A stretch of DNA of 64,000 bases from Laspinema olomoucense D3b. Lineage in GTDB: Bacteria; Cyanobacteriota; Cyanobacteriia; Cyanobacteriales; Laspinemataceae. The stretch spans positions 9,909 to 73,908 of the forward strand of contig NZ_JAMXFA010000023.1 in NCBI RefSeq assembly GCF_025370785.1, written 5' to 3'. This document shows positions 19,735-64,000 of this stretch, one piece after another; positions within the stretch are counted from its first letter, which is position 1; each line of letters begins with the position of its first letter. Below the pieces are notes generated by a model that saw only the letters and a list, made by a program, of their open reading frames with translations, did no database searches and was not told the DNA's origin. Position numbers and translations under genes: made by a program.

Positions 19735-20688
19735 CTATTTTTGTGCAATATTGGCCCATCTTTTTTTCCAACTAGAGGTCGGTTCTAATGGGGATAAGTC
19801 TTGCTCCTGCTGACGCCTTTGGCGAATTTCTTCGGCGGAATCAGACAGGTTGGGGTCCCGATAGGGAGTCGCCGCCCGAGTTTGTAGATGTTCCTGTTCT
19901 TGAGCGGAAAGTAAGGGTAAATCGCCCTCCCCAAAACTCGCCACCGTTCCTGGCGATCGCCGCCCCACCGGCGCTGTGGCCCCAATTTTTAAGCCCGCCG
20001 CCATTAATGCTGTTCTCACCGAGGCCGAACAAGAATAAGTCGCCAATTTTCCCGTCGGACTCAAACAGTGCGCCACCCACCCTAAAAATTCAACCGTCCA
20101 CAGTTGCGGACAATTCGGAGGGGAAAAGGGGTCTAAAAATATGGCATCGGCTTGAAACCCTTGATTTACCACCTTTTGAATGGTTTTCCGGGCATCTCCT
20201 AACCATAACGTCCCTTGGAACTGGGGGCTACGGACAGTCCTCGAAGCCCCAGATTCACCCTGTAACTCTAGGACCGAGCAATGGACTCCCGGCATAGTCG
20301 ATTCACCCTTTGCCTCTAGGCTAACCAGTGCGCCTAGAAGTTCAGGAATGGGCGAGGGCCAAGCTTTAAGCAACCCTTGGGCGATCGCGGCCTGGGGAAT
20401 CGCGGCATCCAATTCCAACCCCACCCACTCCACAAAACAAGCTGGATTAATTGACCAAATCGTCTCTAATGCTGATGCGGTATTGTATCCCAATCCATAG
20501 CATAAGTCAAGCACTCGCACCGAGCAGTTTTGGGCTTTTTCGGCTAACTCCGTGGGTTCTACAAATTTACACCGCGCCTCTTGGCGCGCCCCGTGGTACG
20601 AATGAAACAGTTCACCAAATTCTGGTGAATAAAACGTAAAAGACCCATCAGAGGTCTTTTGAGGCGTCAAGGGCATCATTTCTGCCAT
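19735..20688 (-). CDS. mnmD: MnmD-like tRNA U34 methyltransferase
   Basis: A 317-residue protein with the MnmC methyltransferase-domain pattern but no fused oxidase, i.e. the MnmD form. The start region includes TSDGSFTFYSPEFGELFHS; the SAM site is RVLDLCYGLGYNTASAL near 58-74; and a later loop is ADAIFLDPFSPPNCPQLW near 186-203. It would complete the modified wobble uridine of some tRNAs. The start overlaps the end of the upstream methylase gene by 13 bases, so translation is probably coupled. That pairing is unusual for mnmD. Confidence 0.88.
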   Translation of the reverse strand: MAEMMPLTPQKTSDGSFTFYSPEFGELFHSYHGARQEARCKFVEPTELAEKAQNCSVRVLDLCYGLGYNTASALETIWSINPACFVEWVGLELDAAIPQAAIAQGLLKAWPSPIPELLGALVSLEAKGESTMPGVHCSVLELQGESGASRTVRSPQFQGTLWLGDARKTIQKVVNQGFQADAIFLDPFSPPNCPQLWTVEFLGWVAHCLSPTGKLATYSCSASVRTALMAAGLKIGATAPVGRRSPGTVASFGEGDLPLLSAQEQEHLQTRAATPYRDPNLSDSAEEIRQRRQQEQDLSPLEPTSSWKKRWANIAQK

Positions 20689-22697
20689 AAATCCAGGTCA
20701 CATCCTGTAACTAATTCTAAACAAGCTTGGCGGGCCAGCTTTCGAGCTTCTATTCGGTGTTGAATCGTCCGCTTGACCATCTGTGCAATGTTCTCGCAAC
20801 GCGCTTTATCCTTGGGAATCGGTAAAATTAACTCCTCAATTCGATTACCCAGCGAATCAATAATATCCTGGGTTAAACGCTTTGCCAAGATTTGTTTCTG
20901 CACCGGAACCGAACTCAGGGCTGCCAACAACAAGTAAGAACAAAAAGGACAGGTTTCGCGAACTCGCAATTTATAGAAATGACTTTGATAAAGGATGTGC
21001 GTATCGTCCGCAGTAATCAACGCACAAGTTCCGATTAAATAAGTGCCATCCCGCACCATCAAAATATCCCCTTCCTGCAAGTCCTGTTTTTGGGCCAAAG
21101 ATTGATAAATTTCTTCACTCACTGAATGTTTGGGGTCCGCCTTTATTTCCCAATTTGAAATATCCGAAGTCCGGATAAAGGGGATATTGCCTGTTCCATA
21201 AGCTACTTTTCCCACTTCATCGCCACTGCTGACCTCTATCATCCCTGTGGATATCAATTCTCCCATAGAAATAAACTCGTGACTCTCTTGGAGGTAAAAT
21301 AAGTCAGAAATTGCAGCAGGGTTGTAATAATGCGGGGCTAAAATGCCATTTTGAATGCGATCGCCGGTTATCCAATACCCTAACTGACTCGGTTTCGTTA
21401 AACCTCCTCGTTCATAGTCTCGGTAGCGGGCGGCAATTTCCGGTAAATCATCTCGATCAATGGGTTGCCCCCGGCTATCCCGTCCGCACCATTGAGCCTC
21501 CGCCATAAAAATAGATGGATTGCTGTCATCCTCTGCGGGGTTTCCCGATTTTTTTTGTAATAAAAGTAAGCAAGTTTTAGTATGAGTCCCCCCTTTTCCA
21601 GAGATTTTAAATAACACATCGGGCATACCAATCACGGCTTTAATGATAGAATTTGCTTGGATATAATCCACCACATACCGATAGGTTTTGCTAGAAATTA
21701 AACTTTCCGGAACGACCATGCCAATCCGACCCCCGGGCCGAACCAGGGATAAACATCGTTCCATAAATAAGACCTGGGGCGGTACGGAAGGTTGCAATTT
21801 AGCGAGCTTTTTAAAAGATTGGCTGTTTTTTTCTAACCGCCATCGATATCCCAGCTCAAAGGTAGACTGGACCTGGGGAGAGGCGGCAACAATCCGACTT
21901 CCAAAGGGAGGATTTGTCAGGACAATATCAAATTCACCAACCTGATTTGGGAAGGGAAAAGACTGGGAATTGGATGAACTTTTCTCAGGAGGGTTTGAAA
22001 AATTGGGGGCGAGAAATTCCAGTTCCCAGGCGAGGGAATCCGCACAAAAGACCTGAGCCGATTTGAGGGTCAACAGGGATAAACGGGTCGCCGCTAATCC
22101 GGCGAGATAGTGGTCTTTATCCAGGCCAAAAACTGTAGAAAGGATTTGGTTAACAGAGGCTCCCGCTGCTTTTAAATGGTGAGCAGCCCCGCTTAAAAAT
22201 CCACCCGCCCCACAAGCTGGATCAATGAGCGTTTCTCCGGGAATGGGATTGACTAAGGCCACCAATAAGGCGATCGCATTCCCCGGGGTAAAAAACTGTC
22301 CCTCCTGTCCCCGAATTTGGGACCCCATAAACACTTCATAGATGTCTCCAAAGGGGTCCTGAACGGGGGTATCCAAATCAGCTTTATTCAGCAAGATATC
22401 AATTTGAGCTAGACTGTGAGGGTCGAGGAGCAAGGGTTGCTCCGGGGGAAAAAGCCTCGGCAAAAGCAGCCGCAGTTGGCCAAAAGCTTTATGATATCGA
22501 CGGGCGATCGCATCCACATGGGTTAGATCATGAATCGGCTCAAATAAAGAGGGATTTTGCTGAAAATAGAGCTTGCAAAATAAGCATTTTATTGTTTCTT
22601 GCAGCAAGGTTTCATCGCGAGTTGCACCTAGGAAGCGACCCACCAGATAATTCCGAATTTGTCGATACACCGCTTTAGAATCTCGTTCGAGGTTCAT
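20676..22697 (-). CDS. Orphan N-6 adenine DNA methylase fused to an S-like specificity domain
   Basis: About 673 residues from the ATG at 22697. The HsdM-type part has GDIYEVFMGSQIRGQEGQFF and TPGNA near 117-140, SAM motif I DPACGAGGF at 159-167 and the catalytic NPPF at 262-265. The C-terminal third (about 470-673) looks like a type I specificity (S) half, with PFIRTSDISNWEI and VQKQILAKRLTQ. A methylase with its own target recognition domain but no restriction subunit in view suggests a solitary modifier, or one half of a split system. A longer reading from 22856 would add 53 residues without family support. It overlaps mnmD by 13 bases. Confidence 0.88.
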   Translation of the reverse strand: MNLERDSKAVYRQIRNYLVGRFLGATRDETLLQETIKCLFCKLYFQQNPSLFEPIHDLTHVDAIARRYHKAFGQLRLLLPRLFPPEQPLLLDPHSLAQIDILLNKADLDTPVQDPFGDIYEVFMGSQIRGQEGQFFTPGNAIALLVALVNPIPGETLIDPACGAGGFLSGAAHHLKAAGASVNQILSTVFGLDKDHYLAGLAATRLSLLTLKSAQVFCADSLAWELEFLAPNFSNPPEKSSSNSQSFPFPNQVGEFDIVLTNPPFGSRIVAASPQVQSTFELGYRWRLEKNSQSFKKLAKLQPSVPPQVLFMERCLSLVRPGGRIGMVVPESLISSKTYRYVVDYIQANSIIKAVIGMPDVLFKISGKGGTHTKTCLLLLQKKSGNPAEDDSNPSIFMAEAQWCGRDSRGQPIDRDDLPEIAARYRDYERGGLTKPSQLGYWITGDRIQNGILAPHYYNPAAISDLFYLQESHEFISMGELISTGMIEVSSGDEVGKVAYGTGNIPFIRTSDISNWEIKADPKHSVSEEIYQSLAQKQDLQEGDILMVRDGTYLIGTCALITADDTHILYQSHFYKLRVRETCPFCSYLLLAALSSVPVQKQILAKRLTQDIIDSLGNRIEELILPIPKDKARCENIAQMVKRTIQHRIEARKLARQACLELVTGCDLDLWQK

Positions 22698-22881
22698 GTT
22701 CAACCCAATCTTGAGTGGGAAACGTAGTTTAAGTGTTATTTTAAACCCCACTCCCGGGGGCCGGGTTTGGAAAGGTCTATAAAAACCAGATTCCGTATCA
22801 GCTATGCCGTAAGCTTTGCATCTTGCTCGCTTTTTTTTATCACAAGCGGCCCGCAAGACGCCCTATAAAAACTTGCCCGGG

Positions 22882-42321: not shown

Positions 42322-45300
42322 ATGAGTATCGAAACATATAGTAAGCCGAAACTTCTGGTAGTTGATGACGAACCAGATAACCTCGACTTGCTTTATCGCA
42401 CCTTTTATCGGGACTATGAAGTGCTGACGGCAGAAAATGCCCCACAAGCGTTAGAGCTTCTGGCAAAGGAGGGGGATGTAGCGGTGATTATCTCGGATCA
42501 GCGGATGCCGCAAATGAGTGGGACTGAGTTACTCAGTCTGACGGCAACTCAGTATCCCGATGCGATCCGGATTATCTTGACCGCTTACACCGATGTAGAG
42601 GACCTGGTGGATGCGATCAATGAAGGAAAGGTTTTTAAATACGTCACCAAACCCTGGGATGCTGATGAACTCAAGGCATTAGTTGCACAAGCCTTAGATA
42701 CCCACAATGTCCTGAAAGCCCGGACAAGGGAACTCTGCCGCACTCTGCGCCAGGAATCGTTGCTCAATGCCATTACCAACACCATTCGCTCTCGGACCAC
42801 TGAGGCGCAGATTTTGCAGACGATTGTCGATACCCTCGGCCAAATGTTTGAGGTCAGCTACTGCATTCTACGTCCCTATCAGGATGGCCGCTTTATTGAT
42901 GAATGGTTTATGTATCAAAAGCGGGAACTGGGCACGATGAAGTCCAATGGTCAAGGGCCAAAACTGCCACTTGCCCCCTCGGGACCCATTTCAGAACCCC
43001 AGGGGTTAGCACAGACGGTTTGGGAAACATCAGATATTGAGGTGATCAATGATGTGGAAACCGATGAACGGTTACAGGGAAAGACGCCTCAACTCCAGCA
43101 ACGGCGACAGATGTTAAAAGCGGCAGATATTCGCTCCTGCTTGGTGGTCCCCCTGATGTTTCGGATGGAACTGATGGCTGTCTTGGCATTGCACCAAGCT
43201 GGATCCGGGCGGGAGTGGCAGGATGATGAGGTGCAACTGGTGTTTATGGTGGCGGATCAGGCGGTGTTGTCGCTATCCCAAGCCCGCGCTTATGAACAGG
43301 TCCAGGCCCTAGCCAAGCGCGAGGCCCTGGTGAATACGATTACTACGGCGATTCGGTCGAGTCTGAATCCGAAAGATATTTTTGCGGCGATCGCCCAACA
43401 ATTAGGCCAAGCTTTACAGGCTGATGGTTGTGCGCTGTCGTTATGGACGGTCGAAGATGAGTATGTGCAGTGCGTGGGATTATACGATGCGGCCCTCCAG
43501 GCGGTGGAGGCTTCCGAAGGAGAACAACTGGAGGATGAAGGGAGGGAACGGGTGGGGACATCCTCTGTTTGTGCCGATCCTGCCTTGGAAGTTAAAGGAG
43601 AACCTCCCCAAAATTCTGGGGAATTGCCGCGATCGGTGGTTCCGATCGCCGGGAATCCGGTGTTACAAGAACTGCTGACCACTCGTGCTCCGGTGGTGGT
43701 GGATGACTTGGAAAAGCAGCCAGAATGGAATGTCATGGATTTACCCCTGCGATCGCCTGCCAGGGCTTTATTACTCGTTCCTTTAATCTCTGATGGCGAA
43801 ATTATCGGCAGCATTACCCTGCGCCAAATCCGCTCACCCCGCCGCTGGCACCCCTCGGAAATCGATCTCGCTCAAGCGGTGGCCGCACAAGGGGCGATCG
43901 CTGTCCATCAGTCTCGGCTTTACCAAAAAACTCGTCAGCAAGCGGAACGCCTCCTAGAACTCAACCGCCTGAAAACGGAATTTTTCCAAAATATTTCCCA
44001 CGAGTTCCGTACCCCCTTAACCTTAATGATGGGTCCGCTAGAATCTGCCGTGGAGCATCACCACGATTTACCCTTGGAACAAGCGGCGATCGCCCTGCGA
44101 AATACCCGCCGCCTCCTGCGATTGGTCAATCAACTCCTGGACTTGCAACGCCTCGATGCCGGTCGGATGCAGCCTACGTTTCGTCCCTGCGATTTACTCG
44201 CCTTTGTCTCCCAAACCGTGGAAATTTTTCGTCCCTATTGCGAGAAAAAAGGCATAGAAATTGCTACCGATTTACAGGCTTGTCCTTCCCTCTATTTGGA
44301 TTTGGAAAAGTTTGATAAAGTCCTCTACAATCTCCTTTCCAATGCCATGAAATTTACCGCCTCTGGAGGTAAAATTATGGTCTCCTTGGAACAGGCAGGC
44401 GATTATTCTTTACTCCAAGTTAAGGATACAGGAATTGGCATTCGCACGGATCAAATTCCTCACTTATTCGAGCGCTTTCGTCAAGCCGAAGGGTCGGCGA
44501 ATCGCTCTTATGAAGGTAGTGGATTAGGGTTAGCCTTAGCGAAAGAATTGGTCGAACTTCATGGGGGAACCATTGCCGTTGAATCAAACTATGGGGAAGG
44601 TTCCGCCTTTATGGTGTGGTTACCCCTGGGCAATTCTCACTTACCCCCAGAGCAAATTATTGAAGTGCCCACCGGGGTAGAACCGGCGCGGGCCTCCGTA
44701 GAGTTGGCCGATGTGCAGATGGAAGATGATGGGGTCGGGTTTATCGGTCCCGGAGGTTTGGTGCAACCGGCACAACCCTCAACGATTCACACCCTCCACC
44801 CGACGATTGTTGTGGTGGATGACAATCCGGACTTGCGAAATTATGTCTCGGGGATTCTCACAAAGGAAGGATATCGCGTCATTTTGGCCCGCAATGGGGC
44901 GGAAGGATTTGATGTGGTGCTCAACCATCGTCCCCAGTTAATTGTTACGGATTTGATGATGCCGTTAGTCTCGGGTTTGGATATGATCCAGATGATTCGA
45001 GAGCATGAGTCGTTACGGGGAACGCCGATTATTTTGCTCACGGCGAAGGTGAATGAGGATACGCGCATTGAAGGGGCGGAAAAGGGGGCTGATGCTTATC
45101 TGGCGAAACCGTTTAACGATCGCGAGTTGTTAGCAGAAGTGAGAAATTTACTCGCCCTCAAGGAAAATGAGCGCCGGGTGGCCCAGTTGAATACTTATTT
45201 AACTGAGTCAGTCCTGCGGCGGTTTTTACCCCCTTCTATGGTCCAAAAAGCGGCCTCTGGGGAGTTGTCTTTGGATTTACGTCCGGAACCCCGGTTGATT

Positions 45301-45894
45301 ACGATTTTGTTTAGCGATATCGTCGGGTTTACTCAGTTGGCGAATACGTTGCGATCGCGCCGGGTGGCGGAGGTGCTGAATCAATATTTAACGGAAATGA
45401 CTCAGGCGGTGTTTGATAATGGCGGGACGGTGGATAAGTTTGTGGGGGATGCGATCGTGGCGATGTTTGGTGCACCGGAGGATTTGACACCGAATGAGCA
45501 AGTGAGACGGGCGATCGCCACGGCTAGACAAATGTTACAAGCGCTTGATCGCTTAAATGAGAACTGGGAACAGCAAGGTTTACCTCGGGTTCAGTTCCGC
45601 TGTGGGATTCATCAAGGGACTGCTGTGGTGGGGATGTTTGGCGGTAATTTGCGATCGGATTATACAGCGATCGGTCCTAGTGTGAATATTGCCTCCCGCT
45701 TACAGGAAGCGGCTGACCCGGGTACAATCCTAGTGTCGGCAGCGGTGGCGGATTATCTCCATGATGATGAAATTGTCAAGTTCGGTTCCCTGCAATTAAA
45801 GGGCATTGATGAAACAGTTCTCACCTTTATGGTTCATCGCCATTCTCGGGGGACCAATGGGGAAGTCTCTCAGGCAGAAGGGTCAAATTTATGA
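42322..45894 (+). CDS. cyaC: CyaC-type hybrid histidine kinase / adenylate cyclase
   Basis: A 1190-residue multi-domain signalling protein: receiver (about 10-125, LLVVDDEPDN and IISDQRMPQMSG), two GAF domains (about 150-330 and 340-540), HisKA with NISHEFRTPLTL, an ATPase domain (NLLSNAMKF, DTGIGI, GSGLGLALAKE), a second receiver (IVVVDDNPDL, TDLMMPLVSG) and a class III cyclase at the end. The cyclase has metal residues in FSDIVGFT and VGDAIVAMFG, the adenine-selecting Lys in DKFVGD and Thr in DYTAIGPSVN. Lys/Thr is the class IIIb form known for bicarbonate response. This matches CyaC of Spirulina and Anabaena. It makes cAMP under phosphorelay control. Confidence 0.95.
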   Translation: MSIETYSKPKLLVVDDEPDNLDLLYRTFYRDYEVLTAENAPQALELLAKEGDVAVIISDQRMPQMSGTELLSLTATQYPDAIRIILTAYTDVEDLVDAINEGKVFKYVTKPWDADELKALVAQALDTHNVLKARTRELCRTLRQESLLNAITNTIRSRTTEAQILQTIVDTLGQMFEVSYCILRPYQDGRFIDEWFMYQKRELGTMKSNGQGPKLPLAPSGPISEPQGLAQTVWETSDIEVINDVETDERLQGKTPQLQQRRQMLKAADIRSCLVVPLMFRMELMAVLALHQAGSGREWQDDEVQLVFMVADQAVLSLSQARAYEQVQALAKREALVNTITTAIRSSLNPKDIFAAIAQQLGQALQADGCALSLWTVEDEYVQCVGLYDAALQAVEASEGEQLEDEGRERVGTSSVCADPALEVKGEPPQNSGELPRSVVPIAGNPVLQELLTTRAPVVVDDLEKQPEWNVMDLPLRSPARALLLVPLISDGEIIGSITLRQIRSPRRWHPSEIDLAQAVAAQGAIAVHQSRLYQKTRQQAERLLELNRLKTEFFQNISHEFRTPLTLMMGPLESAVEHHHDLPLEQAAIALRNTRRLLRLVNQLLDLQRLDAGRMQPTFRPCDLLAFVSQTVEIFRPYCEKKGIEIATDLQACPSLYLDLEKFDKVLYNLLSNAMKFTASGGKIMVSLEQAGDYSLLQVKDTGIGIRTDQIPHLFERFRQAEGSANRSYEGSGLGLALAKELVELHGGTIAVESNYGEGSAFMVWLPLGNSHLPPEQIIEVPTGVEPARASVELADVQMEDDGVGFIGPGGLVQPAQPSTIHTLHPTIVVVDDNPDLRNYVSGILTKEGYRVILARNGAEGFDVVLNHRPQLIVTDLMMPLVSGLDMIQMIREHESLRGTPIILLTAKVNEDTRIEGAEKGADAYLAKPFNDRELLAEVRNLLALKENERRVAQLNTYLTESVLRRFLPPSMVQKAASGELSLDLRPEPRLITILFSDIVGFTQLANTLRSRRVAEVLNQYLTEMTQAVFDNGGTVDKFVGDAIVAMFGAPEDLTPNEQVRRAIATARQMLQALDRLNENWEQQGLPRVQFRCGIHQGTAVVGMFGGNLRSDYTAIGPSVNIASRLQEAADPGTILVSAAVADYLHDDEIVKFGSLQLKGIDETVLTFMVHRHSRGTNGEVSQAEGSNL

Positions 45895-55136: not shown

Positions 55137-56066
55137 ATGCCTTATTTAAAGGATCCAGCAGATATTAAAGATGCGATCGCCACCTGTACCCAAGTTGAAC
55201 GCCTTTGGGTGGATACAGAAGTGGCAGATTATCGAACCAAAAAACCCCGACTTTCTTTGATACAGATTTTGCCAGACTTCCCCGGGGATTTCCCCAACTC
55301 CCTAGAATTGTTAATGAACCGGGTTTATCTTTTAGATGTTCTCGATCGCCCCGCATTAACAGCCGAGTTTATCAACACCATCATGGCTGACTCGACCATT
55401 GAAAAAGTATTTCACAATGCTAGTTATGATTTGAGGTTTTTAGGAAAAAGCCAAGCTGAAAATGTAACTTGTACGTTACTTTTGGCGAAAAGCTTGCCGT
55501 TATTTATGTTAGAAACCTCCAATTTTCAACTCAAAACTTTAGCTTGTGAATTGTGCGGTTTACCCCATCCGGATAGTTCCGAGCAACAAAGTGACTGGGG
55601 GAAACGAGCGCTAAGTGAGGCGCAGGTGAGATACGCAACCCTCGACCCGATTTATTTAGCTTATGTGCATCGGCGTCTGGTGGAGATGGAACGTATGACT
55701 CAGCGCGATCCGGCAACGGATAACGTGCAGGTTTTGGCGGCAGAATATACGCGATTAAAGCAGGAAGCGGCATTACTGGAGTCGGAATTGAGTTATGTGG
55801 AAAAGCGCCTCAAATCGGCGATGCAAGCTCAACGGATTCCCCAAATAGAGCGGGTTAAATTCTCCAGTTATGAGCGATCGACGTATAAAACACCGTTTTC
55901 GGAATTAGCAAAACTGGTACAGGAGGAACAGCTAGATTTTGATTGTGTCCTGACCCTGACCAAGGAAATGCGGGCTCAGCTAGATGCCGTCCGCGATCGC
56001 CTTCCCATGTCCGTGGAAACCTCAGAAACCTTGCAGTTAAGGGTCATTTCCTCGGAGGATGAGTAA
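55137..56066 (+). CDS. rnd: Ribonuclease D-like 3'-5' exonuclease
   Basis: A 309-residue DEDDy exonuclease. The metal residues are in LWVDTEVAD (Asp, Glu), HNASYDLRFLG (Asp) and RYATLDPIYLA (Tyr, Asp). After about 200 residues a coiled-coil and helical tail replaces a clear HRDC domain. It trims RNA 3' ends or, less likely, DNA. Its exonuclease part is strikingly close to the N-terminal domain of the converging 862-residue protein at 56792, so the two are recent paralogues. Confidence 0.93.
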   Translation: MPYLKDPADIKDAIATCTQVERLWVDTEVADYRTKKPRLSLIQILPDFPGDFPNSLELLMNRVYLLDVLDRPALTAEFINTIMADSTIEKVFHNASYDLRFLGKSQAENVTCTLLLAKSLPLFMLETSNFQLKTLACELCGLPHPDSSEQQSDWGKRALSEAQVRYATLDPIYLAYVHRRLVEMERMTQRDPATDNVQVLAAEYTRLKQEAALLESELSYVEKRLKSAMQAQRIPQIERVKFSSYERSTYKTPFSELAKLVQEEQLDFDCVLTLTKEMRAQLDAVRDRLPMSVETSETLQLRVISSEDE

Positions 56067-56791: not shown

Positions 56792-59380
56792 TTAAGATAA
56801 GTCAATTTTTGAAGCAAATAAGCTTTGCAATCGGTGTAATTGAGAGCCGATTTGGTAGAGTAAATCTCCTTTGCCCAGGAGGTAAGCAGCGGATGTTTCT
56901 TGCCCGCCTAAAATAATGCTAGAGTCGGCTTCGCTGGCAGTTCGGAGGGCAACTCTTCCGGGCAAATTTGAGCGAATAATCGGTGTAACTACTTTTGCTT
57001 CTGGGCGTTGGGTGGCAATAATCAGATGAATTCCCGCCGCTCTTGCCATTGCACCCAGTCGTTTAATACTGAGTTCGAGGTCGGCGCGAATTTGTTTTTC
57101 TGCCATGAAATCGGCATATTCATCAAAAATGCAGACAATCCGGGGTAAGGGATTTTGTGCTTTCCGGTTATAGGAGGTAATATCATTACAGCCTGCGGAT
57201 TCAAATTGGCGATAGCGAGTTTCCATGTCTGAGACGAGTTCTGCCATCAGTGCGATCGCCTGCTCGCTTTCTTTAACAATCGGGGAGAGCAACCAGCGCA
57301 TCCCTTCAAATTCAGGAAAGGTAACACGCTTGGGGTCTACTAAGGCAATTTTGAGGTGACTAGGTTGATTGCGGTGGAGAAGACTCAACAGCAGCGATCG
57401 CAAAAACTCACTTTTTCCGCTTCCGGTTGTACCGCCTACCAAAAAGTGGCAGGTATTGGGGTCAGATAAATCCGCCTCAATTAAATTGCCATCTAAATCA
57501 ATGCCAATGGCAATTTTGACAGGAGCATCCGCTGGATTTTGTTGCCGATGAATGTAATGGGAAAATTCCGCAGTTTCGCGATCGCCCCGGGGTAAATCCA
57601 CGCTCACATATCCCGCTTGGGGGGCAATTAACGGGGGAACGGGAATCCCTAATTGCACCTGCAAATCCGCTGATAATTTTAAAATCGACGCCACTTTTAT
57701 CCCGGGAGCGGGTTTGAGTTTGACTCGGATAAAAGCCGGACCAATCGCTGCTCCTAAGTAATCAACATTAATTTTAAAAGATTTGAGCGTCACCGTCAAT
57801 TGTTGCCCCATCGCATCTGCATTCAGGGGGAGTTTGGGAACGGAATTTTGCGGCAGATTCAGCAGTGGTTTCAGCGCGGGGGGAGGAGTGTTCCCCGGAG
57901 AATCCACGGCAACCGGACTAGATTGAAAAAACGTTTGACACTTCTGGTGTTGCGGACAAATATCGCACAAGTGAGCTTGGGGAGTGGGCGGGGGTGGATT
58001 GGGATGCGGAGGTTGCCAGCGCAACCAGTCCTGCATTTGTTGGAGTTTATAGGGTATCAGTTGATGTACCGTTTGTTCTAATTCTTCCCAAGAATAGTGA
58101 TACTCTTTAAACTCCGGTAATACACAGTAAACCGCAGAATCTACAGGGCAGTTTCTCTGTTGCTTGAGCATATAGCTATACAAAGCTACCTGGGCAAGTT
58201 GGCCGCTGATATCTGCCGGTTGATAGGTTTTATACTCCACCGCACAGAGGCGATCGCCTTGTCCATGCACAATCAAATTATCCACCTGTCCTTTAACCAA
58301 TTGCCGACTGCCATCGGGTAAATCGAATTGATAATTGAGGCTAAATTCCCGGGCAATAAAGGTTTTAGCGAGGACAGAATCCGCCGAATAAAATTGGCGA
58401 TTCGTCACTAATAATTCGGCATATCGTTGGATTAGTCCTTTTAATCCCTGCCAAATTTGGTTGAGGGCCGGTAGTTTATTGGGGTCCGCTTGAATCGTCG
58501 ATTGGAGATAGCAACGAAACCGCAAATCATAGAAGCGGGTTTGCATCTGTTGGGCGAGAGTGTTGGCATTCAGTTTGGGCGGGGCATCTGCGAGAAACGC
58601 TGTAAATTCCGGCCCATCTAAGATTAAGGAAACAAATTGCTTGGCGAGTTCGTGAAATGGGTTACCAATGCCGAAAGCATTGGGGGTGGGAATAAACATC
58701 GTCATCTTCCCAAAATGCTGGCCCAGATAAAATAACCGGGGACATTCAAAGGCCACACGAACATTAGTCGCTGTCAAAGATTTGGGGTCAGAGGATTCGG
58801 ATTTGGGCATAGGGACAAGCTTGGGGATGGGGAAGGGCTGGGGTTTAGTAAATTGTTTTAATTTCAGATAAACTTGGGCTAAATAAACCGGATCCATCTT
58901 GGCATATCTTAATTGCCCTTGACTGAGGGGGCGCTGTCCCCAGTCGCTGGATTGTTCTTCCGGATGGATATCAGAAAATTGGCAGAGTTCGGCGGCGAGG
59001 GTTTTGAGTTTGAAGTTGGAAACCCCGAGGCGATCGCGTTTCAATGTTCTGGCCCATTTTAAGGTACAGGTGACATTCTGGGATTGAGATTTTCCCAAAA
59101 ATCTTAAATCATAACTGGCATTATGAAAAACTTTTTCGATGTCAGGATTGGCCATAATTTTGCCAATAAACTCCTGGACTAATTCCCGTTTCTCCAACAC
59201 ATCCAGGATATAGGCAAACTCTCCAGTGCAGTCCGTTTCCTGGGCCAGAACTTGAATCAGAGAAAGTCGGGGAACAGGACTGTACCAATCCGCTACTTCG
59301 GTATCAATCCACAGAATCGGATGAGCCGCGAATTGGGCAATGGCAGCTTGGATCTCAGCGGGTCGAGTCAAATAAAACAT
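56792..59380 (-). CDS. DEDDy exonuclease - Cas4/RecB-like nuclease - FtsK motor fusion protein
   Basis: An 862-residue three-part protein. Part one (1-175) is an RNase-D-type exonuclease with D26, E28, D91, Y159 and D163. Part two (about 205-485) is a PD-(D/E)XK nuclease of RecB/Cas4 type: GQVDNL (D367), VEYKTY (E382, K384), then QxxxY in QVALY (Q397-Y401), with Cys213, Cys472, Cys475 and Cys481 placed as for a 4Fe-4S cluster. Part three (about 525-862) is FtsK-like, with the alpha-type lead, Walker A GGTTGSGKS (649-657), Walker B IVCIFDEYAD (748-757) and IATQRPE. No DNA-reading gamma domain follows. It is the last gene of a three-gene operon. It probably moves along and degrades DNA. Confidence 0.9.
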   Translation of the reverse strand: MFYLTRPAEIQAAIAQFAAHPILWIDTEVADWYSPVPRLSLIQVLAQETDCTGEFAYILDVLEKRELVQEFIGKIMANPDIEKVFHNASYDLRFLGKSQSQNVTCTLKWARTLKRDRLGVSNFKLKTLAAELCQFSDIHPEEQSSDWGQRPLSQGQLRYAKMDPVYLAQVYLKLKQFTKPQPFPIPKLVPMPKSESSDPKSLTATNVRVAFECPRLFYLGQHFGKMTMFIPTPNAFGIGNPFHELAKQFVSLILDGPEFTAFLADAPPKLNANTLAQQMQTRFYDLRFRCYLQSTIQADPNKLPALNQIWQGLKGLIQRYAELLVTNRQFYSADSVLAKTFIAREFSLNYQFDLPDGSRQLVKGQVDNLIVHGQGDRLCAVEYKTYQPADISGQLAQVALYSYMLKQQRNCPVDSAVYCVLPEFKEYHYSWEELEQTVHQLIPYKLQQMQDWLRWQPPHPNPPPPTPQAHLCDICPQHQKCQTFFQSSPVAVDSPGNTPPPALKPLLNLPQNSVPKLPLNADAMGQQLTVTLKSFKINVDYLGAAIGPAFIRVKLKPAPGIKVASILKLSADLQVQLGIPVPPLIAPQAGYVSVDLPRGDRETAEFSHYIHRQQNPADAPVKIAIGIDLDGNLIEADLSDPNTCHFLVGGTTGSGKSEFLRSLLLSLLHRNQPSHLKIALVDPKRVTFPEFEGMRWLLSPIVKESEQAIALMAELVSDMETRYRQFESAGCNDITSYNRKAQNPLPRIVCIFDEYADFMAEKQIRADLELSIKRLGAMARAAGIHLIIATQRPEAKVVTPIIRSNLPGRVALRTASEADSSIILGGQETSAAYLLGKGDLLYQIGSQLHRLQSLFASKIDLS

Positions 59381-59481
59381 TAATCAATAGGGTGAAAGTG
59401 GGGTGCTGGTTTCCCTAAAAGGGTGGTGAAAGCCACTAGAAAGAGCAATTCTAGGCCGTTTAATCGGTCATCCATTTGGGC

Positions 59482-61494
59482 CTAGACTTGCGGAACCCGA
59501 GAGATCACTTGAGTCTTGGGATCGCTTTCAGAACCGATCAAATCAATTTTTCCTTCTTGAATCAGTTCATCAATCAATTGATTGAGTCCTTCTGGAGAAA
59601 CCGTATCAAAGTTAGCATGAGCATTGTCAATCGCCATCTCTCGTCCTAAGAACTGTTGGGTAATGACCATATCTAAAATAAAGTCTTTAGCGGCTAAAAT
59701 TTGGGGGTCAACCTCCGGTTGACTCGGGTCAGAATCGGTTTTGGGCGGAGCAGGAACCATACCTAAATCTTGCAATAAGATACAGCCCTGCAAAATCTCC
59801 GTTTCTCGGATCAGTTTCTGCAACCGCTCCAGGGTTATCACTTGATCCACAATCACCAACTCTCCCGCCAGGGCTTCTTTAACTAGGGTATAATAAGTTC
59901 CCAGATAGTGCAGGGAGTTGAGACGGGGGGTGATATGACGATGGGGAGAACCCGTAAACAGTTCTTTATACAGTTTATATCCCTTGAGTTTAGATTCTTC
60001 CACTTTTTCAGCGCGGATTAAATAAACTGGAGTTTTAGGATGCTGTGCCATTGAGCGGCGGCAGGCATCCATCACAAAGAAAAAGGTTTTCATGTTCGGA
60101 TCTTCACTCCAAACCACCCCAATCGATTCCGGTCCACCACTGGGTTGATAGGAGAGAGAATAACTCGCTAATTTGTCGCTCAGTAAAAATTTCGGGGCAA
60201 CGGGTAAGCGCAATGCCTCCATCGCCGCCTGTAACATTTGAATCCGCTCCGGTGCTGAAAAATAACTAATTTTAGCAACTTTTTTCTGAGTCTTTTTAAA
60301 CTCTTCCACCCAGAGTAATTTCAAGCCAGAACCATAATCTGCTGGGGGTGGCGGTTGTCCAATTTTATACTCTTCAATCAGTTGCCGCCCCAGTTGTAAT
60401 ACTAAGCGAGGAGCAGTCTTGCCACTGGGAAATTTTTCTTCTAAGTCTTTGCGAGTTAAGGGATAAATTGGCGAAAGGGGTTGAATGCTAACTTTTTGAT
60501 GCAGTGAATAAAGACGATTTGCCCAGATGGCTTCGGCTTCATCCAAGCCAATTCGTTTGAGGAGAATCAGTTTATGAATTCCCGCTTTATCCGAATTTTG
60601 AATTCCCTGTCTTACAATTTTCCAACTATTTTGCACCATGTTAATAATAATTAAGAAATTCGTGATTCCCTCCAGATGCAGGCGAGTATTCAAACTCAAC
60701 AAGGGTTGCAAATTTAAAGAGCCCCCGGACCCCATACCTACCAGCTCAACGTTATCTAAACATAAAACAATCGGTTGGGTTTCCGTTGAAATTTTTCCCA
60801 AATTCGCTAAAATTTCCCAAGCTGCTTCTTCACTTTCGATGGAATGTTTTAATTTCAGGTCTTGGAGAGAATCTTCACTTAAATCATCCCCGCGCAACCA
60901 CTCGCAGGCGATGGGATAGAGTTCCGGGTTGGTGAGGTCATACAAAATCCCAAAAAAACTATCGGCTTGGGCAATCCCGAGGGATTGATAGGTTTTTTTG
61001 AGGTGGGTGATAAATTTTTTACGATTACTTTGGAGTAAGGTCCAGACTTGATCATCAAAAATTCGCTGTTTTAGGGAACGATTGGTGAAGGCAGACAGAC
61101 TTTTGAGCCAAAGCATGAGTTGGGAATCGGTTTCCCCTTCTGGAACTTGCATGAGACTATCAACAGTGTGGCGCAGGAGATGGCGTCTCATCCATTCATG
61201 GTCAGACCAAGGGGGAATGTAGGCAAAAAAGGCTTTAGGTTTCAAAGTCTTTTTGAGACGACCTAATAGATAACTTTTGCCCGAACCCGGATCCCCCAGC
61301 AGCATAATTGTGCGGCTGTGATGGTCCTGGGCCATTTGGTCCACCCAGGTTTCAATCTCAACCATTGCCTCTTTGTGAATCGAATCAACGGTGAGTGAGG
61401 CTTCTTGGCTTTCTCTCCAAAAGTTTCCCGTTTTAAATGAAATGGGGTCGAAAGGGTTAACCGATCTTTGAATAATTGTGTCTATAGATACCAT
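59482..61494 (-). CDS. Large P-loop ATPase, operon partner of the nuclease-motor fusion
   Basis: A 670-residue ATPase with Walker A GDPGSGKS (67-74) and Walker B PIVLCLDNVEL (about 241-251), so an AAA/STAND-like NTPase. An N-terminal cap (1-60) starts VNPFDPISFKTGNFWRE. The C-terminal 300 residues, from about 410, hold an alpha/beta region (GVVWSEDP, FFFVMDACRR) and a final helical, winged-helix-like part. I do not recognise a named family. It sits about 100 bases before the fusion gene and 60 bases after the upstream gene, all on the same strand. It may load or regulate the motor. Confidence 0.85.
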   Translation of the reverse strand: MVSIDTIIQRSVNPFDPISFKTGNFWRESQEASLTVDSIHKEAMVEIETWVDQMAQDHHSRTIMLLGDPGSGKSYLLGRLKKTLKPKAFFAYIPPWSDHEWMRRHLLRHTVDSLMQVPEGETDSQLMLWLKSLSAFTNRSLKQRIFDDQVWTLLQSNRKKFITHLKKTYQSLGIAQADSFFGILYDLTNPELYPIACEWLRGDDLSEDSLQDLKLKHSIESEEAAWEILANLGKISTETQPIVLCLDNVELVGMGSGGSLNLQPLLSLNTRLHLEGITNFLIIINMVQNSWKIVRQGIQNSDKAGIHKLILLKRIGLDEAEAIWANRLYSLHQKVSIQPLSPIYPLTRKDLEEKFPSGKTAPRLVLQLGRQLIEEYKIGQPPPPADYGSGLKLLWVEEFKKTQKKVAKISYFSAPERIQMLQAAMEALRLPVAPKFLLSDKLASYSLSYQPSGGPESIGVVWSEDPNMKTFFFVMDACRRSMAQHPKTPVYLIRAEKVEESKLKGYKLYKELFTGSPHRHITPRLNSLHYLGTYYTLVKEALAGELVIVDQVITLERLQKLIRETEILQGCILLQDLGMVPAPPKTDSDPSQPEVDPQILAAKDFILDMVITQQFLGREMAIDNAHANFDTVSPEGLNQLIDELIQEGKIDLIGSESDPKTQVISRVPQV

Positions 61495-61551
61495 GCCTGA
61501 AATTACCTAATGCGAAGGGGTAAAAATGCCAACAATCAAGGCAGTCAGAGA

Positions 61552-62391
61552 CTAGAAATAGGTGATAAAAAATAGCGGACATCCGAGATCTTGGGGAATT
61601 CCTGCGTTGATTTGGTCGGGACTGTAGGGGTTTGTATCCACTAAAGAACTCAACTCAATTTTATCGTCGCCTTCCAATCGATAGAGGGCTTGATCCAATT
61701 CCCTGCGGGATAGAGGAGGTTGAAGTTTCTGGCGCAGATGAAAAATTGGTAAATAATTGTCCGTTACTAATTCTTGGTCTAAAGCCCGAATTAGTTGCCA
61801 AATTTCCTCATCACTGGGCTTTTTCATGGGGACTGGGGCGGCAGTTTCGGGCGCAGGAGAGGTCGGCGGTAAAGCGGCTTTTTCCGGGAGGTGAACTTTA
61901 CGGAGAAACCGAAGATATTCCGTCAACATTTTCAGGTGAATCGTACCCTTGGTACTGTTAGACTCAAACTCATCTCGTAAAAATTCTTTTCCCCGTTCCG
62001 TCAGCCAAACTTCTTTAAATTTTTTATCAATAACTTTAATAAATCCCCGGGCGGCTAAACTGTGAATGACAGCTTGTCGCTGCTCCGCAGCAACCCCAGT
62101 TTGCGCAGGGGAAATGCTACCTTTAGCTGTAGCTTTTAGGACTTTTAATTCTTGTTCAGAGATCGGCAATGTGGTCGGATCTGCTTGGAGTAGGGATTTT
62201 CCCGGAGGGGCGATCGCCAATTTTTTGATTTCTTCCGTACAATCAACTAGCCCGCGTTCAATCAGTTGGCGACCGATGCGATCGCGTTCTGAAGCTTTCG
62301 TTTTCGGGTTAGGCTCAACTTTGGTGATCAATGCCCGATAATCCGTAAACCCCAATAACTTCAACAGAAATTTTAGCTCCGTTACATCCAT
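61552..62391 (-). CDS. Winged-helix-like protein, first gene of the nuclease-motor operon
   Basis: About 279 residues from the ATG at 62391 (MDVTELKFLLKLLGF), with GAAGG just upstream. Two or three winged-helix-like segments are visible: LIERGLVDCTEEIKKLAI, VIHSLAARGFIKVIDKKF with WLTERGKEFL (about 115-145), and REXDQALYRLEGDDKIEL-like text near 245. A Pro-rich linker lies at about 180-200. I do not recognise the family. It could bind DNA or join its operon partners. HIP1 sites inside it suggest long residence. Confidence 0.8.
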   Translation of the reverse strand: MDVTELKFLLKLLGFTDYRALITKVEPNPKTKASERDRIGRQLIERGLVDCTEEIKKLAIAPPGKSLLQADPTTLPISEQELKVLKATAKGSISPAQTGVAAEQRQAVIHSLAARGFIKVIDKKFKEVWLTERGKEFLRDEFESNSTKGTIHLKMLTEYLRFLRKVHLPEKAALPPTSPAPETAAPVPMKKPSDEEIWQLIRALDQELVTDNYLPIFHLRQKLQPPLSRRELDQALYRLEGDDKIELSSLVDTNPYSPDQINAGIPQDLGCPLFFITYF

Positions 62392-62671
62392 ACCTTCACC
62401 CGTCGCTTGCGCGCCATAACAACTGCCCAACTTTATAATGACCCGATTTGGAACCCGACGATCGCTTTTTTACAAAACTTTAGAAATCTTCCCGGGTCCG
62501 GTTCCGAGTCCCTCTTTAAAAACCCTCCACCTTATAAGGGGAAGTCTTCAACAGAACAAAGTCTACCGCTTGTGTTTATTAATAAATGTTAAGATATTGT
62601 TCAAATTTAACCTCAGATCCGCTAATATGTAAAACGATTCTGTAAGGCTCCGGATTATCCGGCTAAAAACC
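62392..62671. promoter_or_regulatory. Divergent promoter region of the two candidate-system transcripts
   Basis: About 280 bases between the operon's first gene and the divergent ParA-fusion gene, so both promoters must be here. An AT-rich part (about 62575-62640) contains TTGTTC and TAATAT spaced 20 bases apart, a weak promoter match. Confidence 0.35.
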
Positions 62672-64000
62672 TTGAGTTTCCATCCAGACCTTTGCCGAAA
62701 CGAGAGCGAAGTCGAGAGTAAACTAATCGTGAGTTACTTGTTGCCAGCCTTAGGCTACACCCCGGACAGTTGGCATCAAGAAGTTGCCTTTATTTCACTT
62801 CGGTTAGGTTTCTTAGCCTTCAATACCCCAGCAATTCCCTTCGTCCTCGATGCGAATTCGCCCATGAGGGTCGTCATTGAGGCCAAAAGTCCCAAACAAA
62901 ACCTAGATCGAAACCGAAGAAAGTTGAAGCGATATTTAACGAAACTACAAGTTAAATATGGTGTTCTCACGAATGGCAAGGAAATGCGGATTTATGAACG
63001 ATTGGGGGATGAGATTGAGCTAGTTTTTCAGTGTAGGGGAGGAGAAATTGAGGCAAGAATTGAAGAAATAAATGCCTTGATTGGGAAAGATAGCAGGAAC
63101 CCTAAGCAAACCCTAGATTCCCGGTCTACAGACTCTAATTTCCCTCACCTGGGAGCCGAGTCAATTCCTGAAGGAGTATCTAAAGACATTCCTTTTTCCA
63201 TCCCATTTCCCGAGGAATTATTTCCCGAAACTCCCATTCAGCCCAAACCCGTTGTTGAGCAAAATTTTAATAACCAGAGGAAAGCTACGTTGAAAGTAAT
63301 TGCTGTTTATCATAATAAAGGCGGCGTTGGAAAAACCACAGTTGCAGTCAACTTAGCTGCCGCTCTGAGAAAAAGGGGTAAAAAGGTTCTGTTGATTGAT
63401 ATAGATGCTCAATCTAATTCAACTTTTGCAACCGGATTACTTAAATTCATTTTTGAAGAAGATGACAATTTAAGAGATAATAATGTTTATCATCTTCTGG
63501 AATCGGGCGAATTTTGTTTTATTTCCGATGTGGCGCGAAAATCGGAGGGTTTTAATAATCCAGAAATTGAGGTAATTCCTTCTCATATTACCCTGATTGA
63601 AGGGCAGTATAAATTGAATCAAATCGGTGCCAGTAAAACTCGGTTAGTGACTAAGTTAAGCCGAGTAGAAAAAGAATATGATTTCGTAATTATAGATACC
63701 CCTCCCTCTCGGGATTTATATGCAGAAGTAGCCTTGATTGCTGCGGATCATTTAATTATTCCGTCGGATTTGAAACCTTTTGCTAACCAAGGGTTACCCA
63801 GTGTTACCCAGTTTATCAGCCAAGTTGATGAATTTCGGGAGATGATTGGAAAAAAACCCCTTAATATTTTAGGAGTTTTACCTTCTAAAATTTCCCCTAA
63901 CCCCAAATTTTTGCAATATAGTTTTCCCAAACAAAAGAGGGTGATTCCGGGCCGATATGGCATTCCCTTAATGGATTCAATTATTTATGAAAGAGTCCTT
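62672..64000 (+). CDS. HsdR-like nuclease domain fused to ParA ATPase (partial)
   Basis: 443 codons in the window, running off the right end. I start at TTG 62672, because the type I restriction N-terminal pattern NESEVESKLIVSYLLPALGY (about 10-29) lies just after it; the first GTG (62729) would cut that pattern. A PD-(D/E)XK-like core follows, with VLDANSP (D60) and VVIEAKSP (E70, K72). After a polar linker (about 135-205) comes a ParA/MinD domain with YHNKGGVGKTTVAVNLAAAL and IDIDAQSNST, later IIDTPPSRD. This fusion is unusual. The DNA is AT-rich and lacks HIP1. It is divergent from the nuclease-motor operon. Confidence 0.88.
   Translation, partial: MSFHPDLCRNESEVESKLIVSYLLPALGYTPDSWHQEVAFISLRLGFLAFNTPAIPFVLDANSPMRVVIEAKSPKQNLDRNRRKLKRYLTKLQVKYGVLTNGKEMRIYERLGDEIELVFQCRGGEIEARIEEINALIGKDSRNPKQTLDSRSTDSNFPHLGAESIPEGVSKDIPFSIPFPEELFPETPIQPKPVVEQNFNNQRKATLKVIAVYHNKGGVGKTTVAVNLAAALRKRGKKVLLIDIDAQSNSTFATGLLKFIFEEDDNLRDNNVYHLLESGEFCFISDVARKSEGFNNPEIEVIPSHITLIEGQYKLNQIGASKTRLVTKLSRVEKEYDFVIIDTPPSRDLYAEVALIAADHLIIPSDLKPFANQGLPSVTQFISQVDEFREMIGKKPLNILGVLPSKISPNPKFLQYSFPKQKRVIPGRYGIPLMDSIIYERVL

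Follow-up and report, generated by a model that had tools for sequence, protein, structure and literature searches.

What do three neighbouring cyanobacterial genes do, when the last of them joins two different nuclease folds to an FtsK-type DNA motor? The question is raised by positions 56792 to 62391 of a 64,000-nucleotide stretch of the Laspinema olomoucense D3b genome (contig NZ_JAMXFA010000023.1, positions 9,909 to 73,908; hereafter the window). An earlier note on this DNA, made from the letters alone, had proposed an undescribed system, with defence, plasmid control or repair as possible roles. Our analysis confirms the observation itself and supports that reading in part. Judged from sequence, the three genes (the trio) are a well-conserved example of a kind of system predicted in 2024, with some features beyond the published main text, and not an undescribed one. 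We favour, at a probability of roughly two in three, the reading that their three products form a DNA-restriction (anti-invader) complex, one of the “HerA/FtsK capture” systems that use an Orc/CDC6 ATPase.

Domain architecture of the trio

The three open reading frames (ORFs) lie on the minus strand in the order gene 1 (61552..62391), gene 2 (59482..61494), and gene 3 (56792..59380), with gaps of 57 and 101 bases, as expected of the single operon that the earlier note had described. They encode a tandem winged-helix protein of 279 amino acids (aa) counted from an ATG (an in-frame TTG at 62430 would lengthen it by 13 aa), a putative Orc/Cdc6-type AAA+ ATPase of 670 aa, and an 862-aa fusion of an exonuclease, a Cas4-like nuclease, and an FtsK motor. 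The domain reading of the earlier note was upheld by Pfam for gene 3 and by structure models for genes 1 and 2.

In gene 3, Pfam assigns four domains to one chain: a DEDD 3'-5' exonuclease domain (residues 5-176, 58853..59368; DNA_pol_A_exo1, PF01612, E = 4e-24), a Cas4/RecB-like PD-(D/E)XK nuclease domain with four cysteines (residues 202-482, 57935..58777; PDDEXK_1, PF12705, E = 6e-13; PADLOC Cas4, E = 3e-7), an FtsK-alpha domain (residues 508-597, 57590..57859; PF17854, E = 3e-10), and an FtsK/SpoIIIE motor domain (residues 617-793, 57002..57532; FtsK_SpoIIIE, PF01580, E = 2e-37). PADLOC's HerA models match the protein at E values from 1e-7 to 0.05. Residue conservation was read from alignments of 35 rows for gene 3, 31 of which contain the exonuclease domain. 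In those 31 rows, D26, E28, D91, Y159, and D163 of the exonuclease are invariant, and N87 is kept in 30, the sole exception being an N-to-S change. The Cas4-like domain is identical in 35/35 rows at H243, D367, E382, K384, Q397, and Y401, which we take to be catalytic, and at Cys 213, 472, 475, and 481, which we take to be iron-sulphur cysteines. The FtsK Walker A (K656/S657) and Walker B (D753/E754) residues are likewise present in all 35.

In this genome, 40 of 75 first-look candidates were scored, and gene 3 alone among them matched FtsK/SpoIIIE. We also surveyed the FtsK family (E ≤ 1e-8, at most 40 candidates scored per genome) in a panel of 59 relatives' genomes, which includes the Laspinema genome itself (G000, with the trio on contig C26). 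On that survey, gene 3 is unlikely to be a housekeeping FtsK.

For gene 2, Pfam gives weak AAA matches only (AAA_16, E = 1e-5, under Pfam's cut-off). A model built with a family alignment of 61 ATPase sequences reached a predicted local distance difference test score (pLDDT) of 87.8 and a predicted template modelling score (pTM) of 0.86. With this model, Foldseek returned 23 chains at E ≤ 0.001: 20 belong to Cdc6/ORC subunits or complexes containing them, and the other three are TnsC, NSF, and an NLR. Cdc6/ORC chains stand on top (best E = 4.5e-5), and the query TM-scores are low (0.19-0.27) because the AAA+ part alone aligns. The predicted structure therefore places gene 2 among the Orc/CDC6-family AAA+ ATPases. 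Its AAA+ core spans about residues 1-380 (60355..61494; Pfam, model, and Foldseek), with Walker A G67, G70, G72, and K73 in 65/65 alignment rows and Walker B Asp247 in 63/65. The model's secondary structure delimits an alpha/beta domain at about residues 414-545 (59860..60255), whose order of helix, three strands, helix, and strand is as expected for an inactive restriction-enzyme fold when read after PMC10853773, and a C-terminal winged helix at about residues 597-666 (59497..59706; H-E-H-H-E-E). No nuclease family is among the 25 Pfam families shown for the 61 ATPase members, 31 of which match BrxC_BrxD at E up to 0.5. A sequence search of solved structures with the ATPase gave P-loop matches only (best E = 0.12), and PADLOC gave no match for gene 2 better than E = 0.018.

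Gene 1 matches nothing in Pfam over a cut-off. Its AlphaFold model (53 winged helix-turn-helix [wHTH] family sequences; pLDDT 84.6, pTM 0.51) contains at least two winged-helix-like units, at about residues 79-130 and 194-249, with a possible further one at the N-terminus. In addition, the family profile matches a Z-alpha winged helix over residues 191-247 (E = 7e-4), and 30 of the 53 family members match HTH_45 at E up to 0.5. A fold search with the model found no structural match at E ≤ 0.001, and PADLOC had no match. We propose that gene 1 is a sensor of the target or of its state.

Conservation and co-occurrence of the three genes

We examined whole loci in an ATPase-family search with one genome per species, which gave 77 distinct loci (76 labelled cyanobacteria and one labelled a Tatlockia metagenome-assembled genome). 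Since these come from the best 80 of 146 relatives, the sample is skewed towards the gene-trio type. A wHTH gene lies at most 400 bases upstream of an ATPase gene in 74/77 loci. All three genes stand in order in 50/77, namely 43 with Exo-Cas4-FtsK, 2 with Cas4-FtsK, and 5 with Exo-Cas4 only; two of these last five reach a contig end (L041, L090) and three look broken (L064, L080, L085).

Co-occurrence was then counted across a draw of 291 genomes from the phylum, 83 of them from the same order, Cyanobacteriales (taken from listings of 72 with dndC and 11 shown without). E cut-offs were 1e-40, 1e-80, 1e-30, and 1e-15, depending on the search, and scoring was limited to the leading 4 to 8 candidates in each genome. 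A gene carrying both Cas4 and FtsK parts occurs in 27 genomes; two more hold FtsK fragments and three hold distant FtsK matches only. Among the 83 same-order genomes, both the ATPase and the wHTH protein accompany Cas4-FtsK in 27/27 cases (Fisher p = 2e-16 and 4e-17, respectively, in tests that ignore relatedness). These 27 include two genomes in which the FtsK gene has an in-frame stop (G024, G051) and one whose contig breaks off within the wHTH gene, leaving just its end visible (G188). The ATPase occurs without Cas4-FtsK in six genomes, four of these with the wHTH gene. The panel of 59 relatives gives the same picture, with both partners present in 26/26 genomes that have Cas4-FtsK. The conservation across cyanobacteria on which the earlier note had made its reading depend is thus borne out in both the genome counts and the locus counts.

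The association also survives the loss of linkage. By coordinates, the Cas4-FtsK gene lies about 0.9 Mb from the wHTH-ATPase pair in G098, about 2.1 Mb in G262, and about 150 kb in G139. Since these genomes retain all parts even though the genes are unlinked, they provide strong evidence that the proteins work together. The association of the genes is not due to chance, and the trio is a real module. In comparisons of this genome with three close relatives, dN/dS is 0.12-0.19 for all three genes, indicating purifying selection. (Contigs bearing the names Laspinema palackyanum and Oscillatoria sp. hold ATPases 91-92% identical to gene 2.)

At the same time, the system is dispensable in the order, because it was not found in most sampled genomes: a Cas4-FtsK gene or fragment is present in 29/83 same-order genomes, and 28/59 relatives gave no match in the FtsK-family survey. 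Within the genus, four of eight genomes (G001, G005, G006 save a fragment, and G007) yielded no gene 3; fragments of it persist in G006, G077, G092, and G230.

Among mobile elements, one trio copy lies on a plasmid typed as conjugative. The ATPase matches five plasmid records, of which one, from Pseudanabaena PCC 7367, is full-length and has a wHTH gene and an exonuclease-less Cas4-FtsK gene beside it. Viral contigs contained no ATPase relative, also when searched with the family alignment. With the FtsK part as sole query, 195 phage records match, all below 60% identity.

Comparison with known systems

The closest counterpart of the trio is found in Rakesh, Aravind and Krishnan (Nucleic Acids Research, 2024; PMC10853773), whose main text predicts “HerA/FtsK capture” systems in silico. 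As described there, these comprise an Orc/CDC6 ATPase with an inactive restriction endonuclease (REase) domain before a C-terminal wHTH, an active REase, an FtsK with or without FtsK-alpha, and, in some systems, a separate protein with two to four wHTH units; some have a 3'-5' exonuclease fused to FtsK. The same text describes Orc/Cdc6 genes with an REase-ASCH fusion and a triple-wHTH protein, and proposes an anti-invader (conflict) role for the class. The trio resembles the Orc/CDC6-type systems of that main text in its ATPase, where a further domain separates the AAA+ core from the C-terminal wHTH, its separate multi-wHTH protein, its nuclease, its FtsK with FtsK-alpha (PF01580 and PF17854 both present), and its fused 3'-5' exonuclease (PF01612, catalytic residues kept). 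The word “undescribed” in the earlier note therefore falls, since that text already has the same genes and domains, the fusion of an exonuclease to HerA/FtsK among them.

The trio differs from the description in two respects: its nuclease is Cas4/RecB-like with four conserved Cys, and many of its copies are chromosomal with shared flanks. The main text of PMC10853773 does not tell whether the PD-(D/E)XK domain, with residues invariant in 35/35 rows here, is one of its two REase families, and the words Cas4, RecB, PDDEXK, and cyanobacteria are not found in that main text; the trio locus itself may appear in a figure or the supplement. To the published kind, our analysis adds the synteny with decay in Cyanobacteriales, the grouping of the fused exonucleases, and the occurrence of the wHTH-ATPase pair beside other nuclease-bearing genes (HSDR_N-ParA and DUF1802-Mrr). 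A 2026 BREX paper cites the capture idea (PMC12839542), and as far as the open literature shows, the kind is known only from sequence analysis.

PADLOC-DB 2.0.0 has no system model that matches all three genes. In the profile check suggested by the earlier note, no PADLOC model names genes 1 and 2, but a published class outside PADLOC has these parts. The likeness that the note saw to DptFGH and to HerA-nuclease systems holds at the level of plan. DndFGH/DptFGH combine an ATPase, a DNA-binding protein, and a HerA/FtsK chain with an REase (from the literature, including the main text of PMC10853773). The DptH model TIGR03237 matched in 0/59 genomes, including this one, in a search run without a positive control.

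HerA-NurA and other HerA-nuclease defence pairs combine a ring-shaped pump with a nuclease, as the trio does. Unlike them, the trio has a motor of the FtsK rather than the HerA branch, carries its nucleases on the motor chain, and has two partner genes.

The likeness to SspFGH is likewise one of plan, a Walker-A protein, a second protein, and a long chain ending in FtsK (PMC8092258). PADLOC's SspH model matches gene 3 at 9e-67, over columns 1408-1741 of 1766, which is the FtsK part only. Gene 3 scores 224 bits, a true SspH 2041, and L145, an FtsK protein without a Cas4 match and itself a 54% relative in the FtsK domain, 198. A close relationship of gene 3 to SspH is therefore doubtful, given that the match is limited to the FtsK part and that L145 scores nearly as high. 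In hhalign, one SspF against the ATPase family gave a probability of 1.8% and one SspG against the wHTH family 0.2%, that is, no detectable homology; both queries came from a locus of the same phylum (L144 1-16862, G061) identified as SspFGH by PADLOC. The trio also differs from SspFGH in that its operon has no modification genes (sspBCD were not searched for). PDLC02805, tried as a possible SspF, proved to be another SspH model and matched nowhere, controls included. As a separate observation, SspF, SspG, and SspH in L144 are followed by four more genes; three were scanned without a PADLOC match, and to call them a modification part would be a guess.

A predicted restriction mechanism

In the reading that we favour, the tandem winged-helix protein and the Orc/Cdc6-type ATPase, with its own C-terminal winged helix, would bind target DNA and load onto it. 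Next, the FtsK ring would be recruited and pump duplex DNA, the Cas4-like domain of the same chain would cut the pumped DNA, and the DEDD domain would trim 3' ends. A complex of this kind would need to discriminate self from non-self, and its purpose would presumably be defence. This role is supported because the parts match a published class for which the main text of PMC10853773 proposes an anti-invader role, and because of the co-occurrence, the conserved residues, the low dN/dS, the dispensability, and the one conjugative-plasmid copy. The trio offers a clear, conserved three-gene example in culturable cyanobacteria, and its conserved active sites, together with natural losses for comparison, make the predicted mechanism directly testable.

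Several observations weigh against a defence role. The surroundings of the trio are not a defence island: in a PADLOC scan at 1e-10 of 10 proteins near it, nine had no match, and the remaining one (window 42322-45894), in which a histidine kinase is joined to a cyclase domain, matches the Pycsar cyclase model and two candidate ones; the HSDR_N-ParA neighbour described below matches more weakly. The trio operon includes no modification gene, which leaves self-protection unexplained. Furthermore, the chromosomal flanks of many copies are alike (of the 77 loci, 34 have a GT4 glycosyltransferase, 30 a ParA of 294-310 aa, and 17 IleRS), unlike typical mobile defence genes and unlike the mobile neighbourhoods that the main text of PMC10853773 describes for its systems. 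For mobility speak the one plasmid copy and the unlinked parts in three genomes.

Alternative explanations

These conserved flanks would also suit a machine that handles or repairs chromosomes in filamentous, polyploid cyanobacteria, serving segregation, restart, or the degradation of broken copies. The purifying selection on the three genes, the presence of FtsK-alpha with FtsK as in cellular FtsK, and the RecB/Cas4-type nuclease with an exonuclease all fit such a machine. Yet the trio was not found in most same-order genomes sampled, nor in four of eight of its own genus, some relatives lack any FtsK match, and the published relatives are, in the main text of PMC10853773, conflict systems. 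We thus consider a housekeeping role of this type unlikely.

Somewhat less likely still is a plasmid-exclusion or partition-related system, suggested by recurring ParA, HSDR_N-ParA, and ParB-like neighbours. The nearest such neighbour is an HSDR_N nuclease-like domain fused to ParA (HSDR_N-ParA, identified by Pfam; 62672..64000 on the plus strand, 492 aa in full and extending past the window), which is followed by a ParB-like gene of 262 aa with a weak ParB_N match below cut-off (both genes in full at L026 12581-14844); PADLOC matches the ParA part of the fusion to PDC-M28B (1e-8). HSDR_N-ParA occurs in 16/77 loci (8/50 with a contiguous trio and 8/27 without one), the ParB-like/HSDR_N-ParA pair converges on an ATPase gene in 12 loci, 5 of this genus, and HSDR_N-ParA stands at broken FtsK genes in L080, L085, and other decayed loci. 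However, in the 77-locus set HSDR_N-ParA is missing from 39 of the 45 contiguous trios whose FtsK gene is unbroken. The 294-aa ParA, for its part, persists at sites that have lost the FtsK gene or keep just a fragment of it (G077, G092, G112, G260) and therefore looks like a neighbour, not a part; as a fourth subunit, the 294-310 aa ParA is unlikely.

Finally, the trio could be the missing restriction partner, equivalent to DptFGH/SspFGH, of solitary dnd phosphorothioation genes, cutting DNA without phosphorothioate. It shares their plan of ATPase, DNA-binding protein, and FtsK chain with nuclease; dndC is over the family cut-off in 50/59 relatives and 72/83 same-order genomes, none of the 59 gave a DptH match in that uncontrolled search, and PMC8569181 reports dnd enriched in Nostocales with dndFGH absent. 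We regard this as very improbable, since dndC is common with or without the trio (25/27 Cas4-FtsK genomes versus 47/56 others, p = 0.49) and the trio thus seems not tied to phosphorothioation, while two genomes with all three genes have no dndC at E ≤ 1e-80 (G098, G192) and one has none at E ≤ 1e-3 (G010), this genome's dndC lies on contig C47 and its trio on C26, and SspF and SspG are not detectably homologous to the partners. The neighbours of that dndC (L116 12710-18205) recall dndB, dndD, and dndE by size and order only.

Other partners of the wHTH-ATPase pair

Returning to the anti-invader reading, we found the wHTH and ATPase genes beside nuclease-bearing genes other than gene 3. Beyond the window end lies a second cluster of wHTH, ATPase, and ATPase genes (C26 74964-80153; L026 14902-19989), paralogous to genes 1 and 2, which converges on the ParB-like gene and HSDR_N-ParA and is also retained in genomes of the genus that yielded no gene 3. 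The HSDR_N-ParA cassette is found at FtsK genes that are broken or shortened in L080, L085, G077, G092, and G230, and occupies the FtsK position in G112, G260, and G026. In total, HSDR_N-ParA is present at 8/9 broken-FtsK loci versus 6/45 unbroken ones (p = 2e-5), a p value that is inflated because six of the nine (G026, G077, G092, G112, G230, G260) were opened for a missing or broken gene 3; in the 77-locus set alone, the counts are 2/3 versus 6/45 (p = 0.07). Against displacement of FtsK, the cassette is absent at other FtsK-less loci (G153 twice, G052, G154, G009), which have no FtsK remnant and were left out of the 8/9 count.

A further cassette, found in many filamentous cyanobacteria (L029 10192-14203, loci L164-L181), has homologous wHTH and ATPase genes in the same order as the trio (hhalign, 1.5e-12 and 2e-29, respectively). 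Unlike gene 3, its third gene is a DUF1802-Mrr_cat protein without a motor, in which the Mrr_cat match is weak (E = 0.008). This third gene occurs in 34/59 relatives; loci were opened in 21 of the 34, and the order wHTH-ATPase-(DUF1802-Mrr) was found in 17 of these 21, with the ATPase split into two ORFs in L168. PADLOC gives a weak Avs2 match for its ATPase only. By description, the cassette recalls the Orc/Cdc6 operons with REase-ASCH and triple-wHTH in the main text of PMC10853773.

As the pair is found beside several nuclease-bearing genes, it seems to provide DNA recognition for more than one nuclease partner. We tentatively suggest, as a possibility that we hold to be clearly on the unlikely side, that in Cyanobacteriales the pair acts as a stable platform for DNA recognition whose nuclease partners can be exchanged ((Exo-)Cas4-FtsK, HSDR_N-ParA with the ParB-like protein, or DUF1802-Mrr), that HSDR_N-ParA repeatedly displaced FtsK at the same chromosomal site, and that the locus might be an old, vertically kept immune slot with swapped effectors.

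Fusion history and neighbouring genes

The trio locus is syntenic across much of Cyanobacteriales, with repeated decay. In an exonuclease tree (matches under 150 residues omitted), the fused proteins' domains all group together, and a supported branch (97/89) separates them from 23 stand-alone RNase D-like proteins; three more “stand-alone” rows inside the fused group are cut or broken fused genes. In this midpoint-rooted tree, the grouping fits a single fusion. In the Cas4-FtsK tree, a quick tree that omits locus L122 and matches with an FtsK part under 300 residues, 9/63 rows lack the exonuclease, which corresponds to six changes, or at least five by starred branches. Among these rows, L054 is almost identical to L120, L083 is an interrupted gene, and L117 begins close to a contig end.

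Next to the trio, a stand-alone RNase D-like exonuclease gene (55137..56066, plus strand; Pfam and tree) encodes a protein 54% identical to the gene 3 exonuclease domain; it falls among the 23 stand-alone proteins and lies outside the system. Between it and the trio is an HHL1-like gene (PF20133, 56289-56729), which nothing ties to the system. An N-6 DNA methylase gene (PF02384) is located at window 20676-22856, 34 kb off the trio. Elsewhere, a Tolypothrix sp. PCC 7910 plasmid (L114 1480-7869) carries genes annotated DUF87, NurA, and “exonuclease domain-containing”, the last of which matches the gene 2 ATPase over part of its length with about 24% identity.

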